This document shows positions 3,192 to 12,031 of a stretch of 64,000 nt of DNA, piece after piece; the first letter of the stretch is position 1, and each line of letters begins with the position of its first letter. Where the stretch lies: positions 1 through 64,000 of the forward strand of contig JAHEEG010000002.1 of the NCBI GenBank assembly GCA_024640825.1, written 5' to 3'. Origin of the DNA: Gammaproteobacteria bacterium (GTDB lineage: Bacteria; Pseudomonadota; Gammaproteobacteria; Pseudomonadales; Azotimanducaceae). A model generated the notes under the pieces. That model was given only the letters and a program-made list of their open reading frames with translations. It searched no databases and was not told the DNA's origin. The position numbers and the translations under genes were made by a program.

Positions 3192-4097
3192 TCAGCCGGA
3201 CAGATCCAGCAACATCTGCTTCAAGGCTTCGACGAACGCCAGGGGCTGATCGAGAAACACATGATGCTGGGCGTTTTCAATGGCAATCGCCGGGAAACTC
3301 TGCGGTATCAGCTCGCGCATGTAGTCGAGCGTCCGGTGCGAGAAGAGCTCGCTATCGGCGCCATAAATGACGCCGAGCTTGAGCTTGAGATTCTGGTAGT
3401 CAGCGGGCGCACGCACGACGTCCTTCAGAGTGTCGGGCAGATCGTCGTCAAACTTCCAAGACCAGCCACCGCCGTCAACGGCCATGAGGCTGTGGCGGGC
3501 GATGTACTCCAGCACATACTGATTCTCACAAGGCTGAGGGGGCTGCAGACGAAATCGTGCCAAGGCCGTCTCGCGATCCGGATAAACCTTGGCCCGGCCT
3601 CCCATAGAAGGCCGGGCCGGTTCGGGTTCGTCGGGGTGGCGGATGCCAGAGTCGACGAGGATGAGCGCTCCGAAACGCTCAGGAAACAGGGTTGCCGCCT
3701 TGACCGACATATAACCGCCGAAGCTGTGGGCCACCAGCGTGACGTCGCTGCCAAAGCCGGCGGCGTCGCAAACCGCGCGAATTTCTTCAGCGAAAGTGGC
3801 GCCGCGATACTCGTAACGGTAATCCGAATCACCCATACCGGTAAGGTTCATCGCCGCGCAGCGGTGGGTGTCGAGAAATTGAGGGGCAATGAAATCCCAC
3901 CAGTGAGCATGGGCGTTCATGCCGTGGATGAAAAGCAGCCCCGGTTTCGCGGGTTTGGTGCCCTCCGCTTCACCCCATAGCTGATAGGCGACGTCACACT
4001 CGTCAACCTCGACGGTTCTTTCCTCGAAAGGCGTTTCTACCGCTTCGAAAAACCATTCCGGGATGGTGGGAGCGCTGCCCCTGTCCCAGCGCGCCAT
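3192..4097 (-). CDS. Alpha/beta hydrolase
   Basis: LLFIHGMNAHAHWWDFIAPQF, nucleophile elbow VAHSFGGYMS, C-terminal NAQHHVFLDQP. Confidence 0.92.
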   Translation of the reverse strand: MARWDRGSAPTIPEWFFEAVETPFEERTVEVDECDVAYQLWGEAEGTKPAKPGLLFIHGMNAHAHWWDFIAPQFLDTHRCAAMNLTGMGDSDYRYEYRGATFAEEIRAVCDAAGFGSDVTLVAHSFGGYMSVKAATLFPERFGALILVDSGIRHPDEPEPARPSMGGRAKVYPDRETALARFRLQPPQPCENQYVLEYIARHSLMAVDGGGWSWKFDDDLPDTLKDVVRAPADYQNLKLKLGVIYGADSELFSHRTLDYMRELIPQSFPAIAIENAQHHVFLDQPLAFVEALKQMLLDLSG

Positions 4098-8225: not shown

Positions 8226-9553
8226 ACCAGCCCCTGCTCGCGCAGAAATGGCTTGAGATGGTCCAACAGGGTAGGTGCGCCCGCATCGGCATAGGTATAG
8301 CGCGCGCGCACCACGGGCATGCGAACCGAGACAACCCTCGCGAAATCAACAGGGGTGCCCGCCACCACGACCTCTGCGCCTGAGTCGTCGATGGTGCGCT
8401 GCAGCGCCTGGCGCTGGGACGGGTTGTAGCCCACCGCAGGCAGCACCGGCCCGATGTGCCGATAACGCCGGTAAACTGCCTGGATTTCAGGCGCCGCGGA
8501 TGCTCTGGGATCCACCAGAGTTATCCCTGGCAAACCCTGCACCGCCTGGTAGCCTGCGCCGAAAGGCATACCGCCGTGGGTCAGCGTGGGGCCGTCATCC
8601 ACCACCAGTACCCGCTTCCCGCGAACCTGATCCGGGTGGTCCAGAGCCACCGGGGACGCCGCAAGAACCTGAGGCACATGGGGAAGCAGGTCGCGCAGCG
8701 TATCTGCCAGACTGCCTGTCTGTTCCGGCGTGGCAACGTCCACCTTATTGATCAACAGCAGGTCGGCCATGCGCAGCACCGCCTCACCGGGATGGTGAGT
8801 CATGAGCTGATCGGGGCGCAGCGCATCCACCAAGACGATGTGAAGATCCGGCTGCAGAAAGGGCAGATCATTGTTACCGCCGTCCCAAACCAGCAGATCC
8901 GCCTCCCGCTGCGCCGCCGCCAGTACCGCCGAGTAATCCACCCCGGCGAACAGCAGGCTTCCGGCAGCAACGTGAGGCTCGTATTCCTCACGTTCCTCGA
9001 TGGTACAGTCTGCGGCATCGACATCCGACAGGCTGGCAAAGCGCTGCACCCGCTGCGCCGACAGGTTCCCGTAAGGCATGGGATGACGCAGAACGGCGAC
9101 CCGCAGACCTAGCTTGGCCAGAGCCCGGGAGACATGCCGAGCCGTCTGGGACTTACCGCACCCGGTGCGCACTGCCGAAATGGCAATCACCGGCACCGAT
9201 GCGCGCAGCATGGTGGCACCAGGCCCGGCAACATGAAAATCCGCACCGCAGGCAAGCGCGCGCGACCCCAGGTGCATGACCTCAGCGTGGGTTACGTCGC
9301 TGTAGGCAAAATCGACCTGAGAGATCAGGTGTTCTGCACACAGGGACTCGAGCGCGCTTTCCGCTACGATGGGGATACCTTCCGGGTACAAGGCGCCGGC
9401 AAGTTCCGGGGGATAACGCCGATCATCGATACCGGGAATCTGCGTAGCCGTAAAAGCTACGACCCGAACTTCGGGGTCGTCGCGGTACAGGCAGTTGAAA
9501 TTATGGAAATCCCGGCCCCCAGCACCACATATGACCAGATGCCGCTGTTTCAA
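8222..9553 (-). CDS. Cyclic 2,3-diphosphoglycerate synthetase-like P-loop protein
   Basis: N-terminal VICGAGGRDFHNFNCLYRDDPEVRVVAFTATQIPGIDDRRYPPELAG and P-loop AVRTGCGKSQTARHVSRAL characteristic of the cDPGS-like family; LLINKVD; TTG start proposed at 9553 overlapping the upstream ACAD stop codon. Confidence 0.82.
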   Translation of the reverse strand: MKQRHLVICGAGGRDFHNFNCLYRDDPEVRVVAFTATQIPGIDDRRYPPELAGALYPEGIPIVAESALESLCAEHLISQVDFAYSDVTHAEVMHLGSRALACGADFHVAGPGATMLRASVPVIAISAVRTGCGKSQTARHVSRALAKLGLRVAVLRHPMPYGNLSAQRVQRFASLSDVDAADCTIEEREEYEPHVAAGSLLFAGVDYSAVLAAAQREADLLVWDGGNNDLPFLQPDLHIVLVDALRPDQLMTHHPGEAVLRMADLLLINKVDVATPEQTGSLADTLRDLLPHVPQVLAASPVALDHPDQVRGKRVLVVDDGPTLTHGGMPFGAGYQAVQGLPGITLVDPRASAAPEIQAVYRRYRHIGPVLPAVGYNPSQRQALQRTIDDSGAEVVVAGTPVDFARVVSVRMPVVRARYTYADAGAPTLLDHLKPFLREQGLV

Positions 9554-10749
9554 TCGGGAAGCCCCAGCACTCGCTTGGCAATGATATTGGCCTGCACCTC
9601 GTTGGTACCGCCGTAAATGGTCACAGCGCGGCTGGCCAACCAAGACCGGGCAACGCCCAGCTCGTCATCGGTGAACGCGTTGCCTTGCCAACCCAAACCC
9701 TGAGTGCCCATCAGGCGCATCAACAGATCCTGACGGTCCTGAGCGAGGGTGGAGCCAAAAAGCTTGAATATCGAGGTGGCCTCGCCGGGCGTGTCCCGTA
9801 TGCGACTCTCCTCGCCGACCCGCCGCTGGGTGAGCTTGAAGGCGGCGTCGTCCATTTTCCAGCGCAAGACTTCGTCTCGAAGACCGGGTTCTGCAATGCG
9901 GCCGTCGTCCAGACCCAGGTAGCGCCGGGCAACCTCGGCAACATCCAGATCTACCGTGACACCCACCGGCCTGGGACGTGCGGAGCTAACACTCAGGCCG
10001 CCTTGTCCGGAGCGCTCGTGCTGTAGAAGCCGCTTTCCCACCGTCCACCCATCGTTGAGCGGTCCAATAAGGTCTTCCTTGCTGGCGATAGCGTCGTCGA
10101 AGAAGGTTTCACAGAACGGAGAGCTGCCCGAAATCAGCGCGATGGGGCGCACCGTGACGCCAGGCTGATCCATCGGCAGCAGAACGAAGCTTATGCCCCG
10201 GTGCTTGGGCACGTCGAAATCCGTGCGCACCAAGCAGAACATCCAGTCCGCCGTCTGCGCCCCCGAAGTCCAGATTTTCTGACCGTTGATAAGGAAGTGA
10301 TCGCCCTTGTCTTCGGCGCGGGCACGCAGGCTGGCCAGGTCTGAGCCAGCGCCAGGCTCGCTGTAACCCTGACACCAGGAAGCCAGGCCCAGGGCAATGC
10401 GGGTGAGATGCCGTTTCTTCTGCGCTTGTGTTCCGTACTCGAGCAGGGTGGGCCCCAACATGCGGGTCCCCATATTGATCAGCGGAGGCCTGGCATCGAT
10501 GGCGGCCATTTCCTGATAAAGCACTTGGGCCTGATCCTCGGAGAGCCCGCCTCCACCATAGGCCTCAGGCCACGTCGGCACCGTCCAGCCCCGCTCCGCC
10601 ATGCGCTCCAGCCACAGACGCGTGTCCGGGTCCTGGATCTCCTCTTTAGTGCTGCCGCTGGGGATATCGCCGGGGCCTCGAGCGCCCGGAGGGCAGTGCT
10701 CCGCCAGCCAGGCTCTGGTCTCCTCACGGAAACTCTCTAGATCACTCAT
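9550..10749 (-). CDS. Acyl-CoA dehydrogenase family protein
   Basis: WCQGYSEPGAGSDLASLRARAEDKGDHFLINGQKIWTSGAQTADWMFCLVRTD, IYGGTNEVQANIIAKRVLGLPD; start at MSDLESFREETRAWL with upstream GGGGG. Confidence 0.94.
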   Translation of the reverse strand: MSDLESFREETRAWLAEHCPPGARGPGDIPSGSTKEEIQDPDTRLWLERMAERGWTVPTWPEAYGGGGLSEDQAQVLYQEMAAIDARPPLINMGTRMLGPTLLEYGTQAQKKRHLTRIALGLASWCQGYSEPGAGSDLASLRARAEDKGDHFLINGQKIWTSGAQTADWMFCLVRTDFDVPKHRGISFVLLPMDQPGVTVRPIALISGSSPFCETFFDDAIASKEDLIGPLNDGWTVGKRLLQHERSGQGGLSVSSARPRPVGVTVDLDVAEVARRYLGLDDGRIAEPGLRDEVLRWKMDDAAFKLTQRRVGEESRIRDTPGEATSIFKLFGSTLAQDRQDLLMRLMGTQGLGWQGNAFTDDELGVARSWLASRAVTIYGGTNEVQANIIAKRVLGLPD

Positions 10750-10897
10750 GAATTCACCCCCATATGTCTGACCGAGCCGCTGTGTTCCAAATATTCGCTT
10801 TTCTCGGCGGCTGCCCAAGCATATATCGACGCAACGGCCATTGGAAAAACCAACCCGACCCGGACATCCATATCAGTATCAGCCGCAGTGATAGCGG

Positions 10898-11040
10898 GGC
10901 CTGGTCCGGGGAAACGCATTTGCTGACAATGTCGCGGCGCCGAGGCGGCCGATTTGGCTCGAATAGAGGCAACATCGACCGCCAAGGGCAGGCCGGAGGC
11001 CCGACGCGAAGTCTGCAAATGCGTTTCCCCGGACCAGGCC
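10898..11040. mobile_element. MITE-like non-coding element (143 bp with 30-bp terminal inverted repeats); identity as a mobile element unproven
   Basis: Left arm 10898-10927 GGCCTGGTCCGGGGAAACGCATTTGCTGAC; right arm 11011-11040 GTCTGCAAATGCGTTTCCCCGGACCAGGCC; 29/30 complementary; 83-bp interior; no TSD or transposase seen. Confidence 0.6.
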
Positions 11041-11173
11041 ACTCAAACAACCTACTGCCGTGCCGGACACCGATGTCTGAGTCGACAAAGTCGACGCAGC
11101 ATGGAAAAAGCCCGCCGATCTGTGCACCATAGCTGGCCTGAAAAGCCAGAAACCCTCCACGGGAAATCACACC

Positions 11174-12031
11174 ATGAGTTACAACACCATCCTCTACGAC
11201 GTCGAAGACGGCATTCTCACCCTGACGTTGAATCGACCAGAGATACTCAACGCCTACAACCGGGAAATGCAATCCGAGATGGTGGACGCGCTCGACCGGG
11301 CGGACGCCGACGACGAGGTTCGCGCCATCATCGTGACCGGCGCCGGCCGGGGGTTCTGTGCGGGCGCTGATCTATCTTCAGGCGGTAGCACTTTCAACGC
11401 TGACGGTCGGGAAGATCGCGAAAGCGGCCTGCAACGGGATGGCGGCGGCGTCCTGACGCTGCGTATCTTCGAGCTGAACAAACCCATCATCGCCGCCATC
11501 AACGGCCCCGCGGTAGGGGTGGGCGTGACCATGACGCTGCCCATGGACATCCGGATCGCCGCGGACACGGCCAAGTTCGGCTTCGTTTTCTCCAGACGCG
11601 GAATCGTCCCCGAGGCCTGCTCGAGCTACTTCCTTCCTCGGATCGTCGGGATCAATCAAGCCCTGGAATGGTGCTACAGCGGGCGGGTGTTTCCTGCCCA
11701 GGAAGCGCTGGACGGCCGGCTGGTGCGCAGCATCCACCAGAAAGAGGACCTGCTGCCTGAAGCGCGTCGCATTGCTCGGGAAATTGCCGAAAACACCTCT
11801 GCCATTTCGGTATCACTGATCCGCCACATGATGTGGCGCATGCTTGGCGCCGACCACCCCATGGAGGCCCACAAGCTGGATTCCCGAGGCGTCTACTACA
11901 CCGGCAAGTCAGCTGACTCGAAGGAAGGCGTGGAGGCCTTCCTGGAGAAACGCGACGCCAGATTCCCGGGCAAAGTCTCGGCAGACATGCCCGAATTCTT
12001 CCCCTGGTGGGAAGAGCGAAAATTTTCCTGA
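11174..12031 (+). CDS. Enoyl-CoA hydratase/isomerase family protein
   Basis: Crotonase fold: AIIVTGAGRGFCAGADLSS, KPIIAAINGPAVGVGVTMTLPMDIRIAADTAKFGFVFSRRGIVPEACSSYFLPRIVG. Confidence 0.95.
   Translation: MSYNTILYDVEDGILTLTLNRPEILNAYNREMQSEMVDALDRADADDEVRAIIVTGAGRGFCAGADLSSGGSTFNADGREDRESGLQRDGGGVLTLRIFELNKPIIAAINGPAVGVGVTMTLPMDIRIAADTAKFGFVFSRRGIVPEACSSYFLPRIVGINQALEWCYSGRVFPAQEALDGRLVRSIHQKEDLLPEARRIAREIAENTSAISVSLIRHMMWRMLGADHPMEAHKLDSRGVYYTGKSADSKEGVEAFLEKRDARFPGKVSADMPEFFPWWEERKFS

Follow-up and report, generated by a model that had tools for sequence, protein, structure and literature searches.

A long and nearly perfect inverted repeat lies between two divergent genes of a gammaproteobacterium of the Azotimanducaceae, and the question is whether it is a small transposable element, a regulator of its neighbours or a structure of another kind. 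It is found in the first 64,000 nt of contig JAHEEG010000002.1, the stretch of DNA analyzed here and called the window. The original prediction had described a MITE-like element whose arms were terminal inverted repeats, whose interior was featureless and whose position could affect either neighbouring promoter. The repeat itself was confirmed. Its 5' arm (10898-10927, plus strand), which has a sequence specific to this locus, is complementary at 29 of 30 positions to the 3' arm (11011-11040, plus strand) across 83 nt, and the long closing stem that they form is by far the best of the 16 inverted repeats reported in the window. Folding of 10890-11048 as RNA gave -101.7 kcal/mol (z -9.2) for the plus strand and -102.1 kcal/mol (z -10.7) for the minus strand, and none of 200 shuffles folded as well. 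The gap of 424 bp between the two gene starts was also as predicted. It separates an acyl-CoA dehydrogenase (ACAD) gene (9550-10749, minus strand) from an enoyl-CoA hydratase/isomerase gene (11174-12031, plus strand); both are supported by Pfam and read away from the element, which stands 111-163 bp from their start codons. No target-site duplication is present at the element, again in agreement with the prediction.

A search for further copies of the element and of its arm, as the prediction had proposed, gave different answers for the two. When at most 3 mismatches were allowed, the 26-nt arm matched nothing in the 4.1-Mb genome but the two arms of the window. A DNA search with the complete element, in contrast, located its core elsewhere in the same genome and in a congener. 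Each of these other sites has the same core inside a different long inverted repeat. The interior that had been taken as featureless is in fact the conserved and repeated part. The core (10929-11011, plus strand) has about 80 nt and folds as a three-way junction, and it is recognized with 87.8 bits (E 9e-18) by R1, a covariance model built from ten cores. Just inside the long arms is the inner closing helix P1 (10933-11008, plus strand; 10933-10936 paired with 11005-11008), which in other copies often has G.A mismatches. The junction is completed by P2 and P3. The P2 arm (10939-10989, plus strand) has a variable apical loop and a conserved TTG-A-C...G-G-CAA element, which reads TTGGC in the window copy. 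The P3 hairpin (10991-11001, plus strand) is GGCC-GGA-GGCC; its GGA triloop is found in about 80 of 108 aligned copies and is retained even where the closing pair differs. In this alignment of 108 copies, which was fitted to the covariance model and so leans towards structure, 89.6% of the cells pair, doubly changed cells number 377 against 112 expected on shuffling, and the covariation score is 0.444 against 0.127 for shuffled data, with all slid-partner controls below 0.08. A genuine covariation signal is indicated by these controls and by the number of pair types. Among the core pairs, G.U (76) outnumber A.C (15), which identifies the plus strand as the folding strand.

The R1 model found 23 copies in the genome of the window (G000), 37 in a second species of the genus (G004) and 21 in G092. 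Copies occur in 23 of the 81 genomes examined from the family, while in a draw of 246 genomes from the order the only match was the window's own genome; all genomes in the set are metagenome-assembled. A pattern scan of one genome per named species (85,462 genomes) returned mostly MAGs of uncultured marine Gammaproteobacteria, plus a few probable chance matches. One good core match (60.6 bits; L143:3045-3127) comes from a MAG that bears the alphaproteobacterial name Rhodobiaceae UBA7804 and may reflect a mislabelled MAG or a transfer. Good arms, with a median of 28 bp, are present in 79 of the 85 copies with enough flanking sequence. The closing stem differs in sequence at nearly every locus, yet it is near-perfectly self-complementary, a pattern that suggests a structure under maintenance and not the ends of a transposon. 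No family in Rfam (release 15) matches the element, and no earlier description was found in the open-access literature searched. Apparently, this is an undescribed hairpin family, with 20-40 copies per genome in some marine bacteria.

Arms and core evolve in different ways. We compared G000 with G004, taking orthology from the synteny of the two genomes. At orthologous arm positions, 255 were the same, 57 compensated and 19 one-sided, so that 57 of the 76 changed positions were altered on both arms and 19 on one; the arms were located by complementarity, and one-sided changes at their outer ends are undercounted in these figures. One locus had changes at 10 of its 25 arm positions, all of them paired, and its core was identical at 78 of 81. 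Compensated changes comprised 30 transitions and 27 transversions and therefore did not arise mainly through G.U intermediates. Orthologous cores are 87-88% identical and the flanks 55%, and at four-fold sites of neighbouring genes 96/140 and 127/213 were identical (60-69%). The arms thus diverge at nearly the rate of the flanks while keeping their complementarity. Paralogous cores within a genome share only 65% identity, against 87% for orthologous cores; therefore each locus is conserved individually, without conversion between copies. Polymerase template switching between inverted repeats is known to homogenize arms and to invert spacers (PMC8604942). At one orthologous site (C91/C45) the orientation of the core is reversed, which is what template switching with inversion of the spacer would produce. 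We infer that template switching acted on the arms and spacer in this family. The idea that arms are made by copying the flank at insertion was also considered, since two sites without the element in G000 keep an outer portion of the 3'-side arm, but deletion explains these equally well and the idea was set aside.

The genomic context of the copies is not random. Among 90 copies with both neighbours called, according to our own hexamer-based gene calls, the flanking genes are convergent for 49, tandem for 34 and divergent for 7, including the window copy. On 441 kb of G000 contigs already known to contain the element, copies occupied 7 of 71 convergent gaps compared with 7 of the 316 other gaps (Fisher p 0.006; p 6e-4 when only gaps of at least 100 bp are counted). 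Copies in tandem gaps show no preferred orientation with respect to transcription (18 vs 16), contrary to what a simple strand-specific motif in the 3' UTR of the upstream gene would show. Copies that lie close together are nearly always arranged as (-)(+), divergently oriented with their 5' sides facing. An apparent tandem duplication of a whole (-)(+) pair was seen in G004 (C15, L101:1545-2293). Short tandem repeat arrays of GTAGCCAG occur between paired elements in both species (L071 on C144 of G000; L015 and L089 on C57 of G004). A widely spaced pair in G090 (C124, 1.2 kb apart) was inspected as a possible autonomous element and rejected, because the sole gene between its members is of host type and, judged by eye, thioesterase-like.

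Two explanations treat the element as mobile. If the 30-bp arms were the terminal inverted repeats of a MITE moved by a transposase in trans, as originally predicted, the dispersed copies would be accounted for, and in the sister genus g9 the hairpin does lie inside non-autonomous IS4-type elements of 234-290 bp. Duplications of 10-11 bp were found in 16 of 19 cases measured across this MITE class, and the same ends bound a 1.5-kb element that codes for an IS4-family transposase. However, those 18-bp ends, GAATGGCACTTACTTAAG, lie outside the arms. In the genus of the window the arms differ between loci, those of the window being single-copy, and change in pairs. None of 89 copies had a shared repeat of at least 8 nt within 30 nt around the arms, no clear excess was seen at 60 or 100 nt, and IS4-type ends were not above the reversed-pattern control. 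The dispersal and the hairpin potential foreseen in the original prediction are thus upheld, but the arms are quite improbable as transposon ends. Versions of the g9 MITE without the hairpin, of 85 and 95 bp, were also found. They lie in G012 (L188 and L190, on C34 and C127), and in one of them the outer end of the 3' arm persists, as it does at two G000 sites that lack an element present in G004. The hairpin can therefore travel as MITE cargo in g9, and we infer that other genera acquired it in the same way. A REP/BIME-like element spread on a folded single strand by a RAYT (Y1 HUH transposase) would likewise be extragenic and dispersed, with inverted pairs and an intergenic preference, and PF01797 genes are present in G000, G004 and G069. 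Yet the Y1 genes examined had no copy within about 1.5 kb; G003, G015, G016 and G090 carry the element without a Y1 gene, as does G092 (77% complete); and units of about 140 nt with long locus-specific arms are far from REPs of 20-40 bp (PMC3733652), so that spread by a RAYT appears improbable. In G001 of the same genus, a different repeat family was seen as two near-perfect palindromes of 43-45 bp with tiny loops and GGGGTC(A/G)GAGTAAAA ends (L238:2425-2517 and 3500-3586).

Two further explanations place the function of the element in regulation. If the element were an operator acting in both directions, or a regulatory leader, dedicated to the two CoA-metabolism operons, this would agree with the position of the window copy in a divergent gap and with the presence of that copy at the same place in G004. 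Against this, the same core recurs at numerous further loci, most of them at gene ends, and in G003, a third species of the genus, this divergent gene pair is separated by a shorter gap that lacks the element, which makes the window copy lineage-specific. Nothing was found showing that the window element controls the ACAD or the enoyl-CoA hydratase gene, and the proposed effect on either promoter was not borne out. The window copy, being between divergent genes, is atypical of the family and is probably not a regulator of its neighbours; an operator dedicated to them is very improbable. The copies might instead be stand-alone small RNAs transcribed from the plus strand, for example decoys that bind CsrA/RsmA. 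That the plus strand is the one that folds (G.U 76 vs A.C 15), that P3 exposes a GGA loop, and that the architecture resembles TwoAYGGAY, an RNA proposed to bind CsrA (PMC4333381), all speak for such RNAs, as does an enrichment of CTGGAA/TCGAA found in a promoter-motif search upstream of the 5' arm. This enrichment is weak and variably placed, however, the single GGA is held in a triloop, and no U-run terminator follows the 3' arm, so that small RNAs of this type seem rather unlikely. An intrinsic terminator was rejected on similar grounds, as the composition outside the arms shows no U-run after either arm.

We therefore favour, with a probability of roughly 70%, the reading that the window holds one member of a dispersed set of structured, non-coding elements, which spread, have kept their arms and act at gene 3' ends as follows. 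The family would have dispersed as cargo of MITEs and, in other genera, would have remained at its sites once the transposon ends had disappeared. Complementarity of the arms would be kept by replication template switching between them, by selection for the stem, or by both. At gene 3' ends the folded element may act as a barrier to transcription or to 3' exonucleases from converging genes; alternatively, its GGA loop is a candidate binding site of the CsrA/RsmA kind. More tentatively, and with considerable doubt on our part, the family could represent a new class of host-maintained nested hairpins, with a fixed core and both arms rewritten in concert by template switching, used at converging gene ends and perhaps widespread together with TwoAYGGAY. 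The element adds to the known repertoire a covariation-supported structure with no match in Rfam release 15 and with tens of copies per genome. It also offers a natural system for watching the arms of inverted repeats evolve in concert around a conserved core. Furthermore, it ties TwoAYGGAY, an RNA motif class of unknown function, to mobile-element cargo and inverted-repeat dynamics, which makes its function testable.

Three known systems resemble this family in part. REP, BIME and REPIN sequences are likewise dispersed extragenic palindromes, often in inverted pairs and enriched between convergent genes, but the present hairpin is much larger, its arms are locus-specific, and none of the RAYT genes examined is linked to or flanked by copies. 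IS4-family MITEs are matched in g9, where the hairpin lies inside 18-bp ends with 10-11 bp duplications and a corresponding IS4 element encodes the transposase; in contrast, the genus of the window, the window copy included, lacks both ends and duplications. What the family has in common with TwoAYGGAY (RF01731) is a three-way junction with two hairpins, enclosed by a long closing stem of variable sequence (about 25-30 bp). It differs in that TwoAYGGAY has AYGGAY in both loops, whereas here P3 is a C(GGA)G triloop without AY and P2 combines a variable loop with the conserved TTGAC..GGCAA element. RF01731 did not match the window copy or member L092 even at E up to 10, nor other members at E up to 1. 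Sub-threshold TwoAYGGAY matches in the carrier genomes also have long arms, which differ at most loci, and two such matches in genus g17 are preceded by CTCGAAT-N-CTGGAAG, a motif similar to sequences that precede several copies of the hairpin described here. An IS4-type MITE in G012 (C14, L187:602-846) carries as cargo a TwoAYGGAY-like hairpin with CAGGGATG loops and 25-bp arms, and is a sibling of the MITEs that carry the present hairpin; it shares their IS4 ends, and its match to TwoAYGGAY is sub-threshold (32.7 bits, E 0.0016 in a short search). Because it fails both the cut-off score and the AYGGAY loops, the present family is a variant related to TwoAYGGAY by architecture and not a member of it. 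It is best read as a new variant of long-armed structured repeats that spread, at least partly, as MITE cargo.
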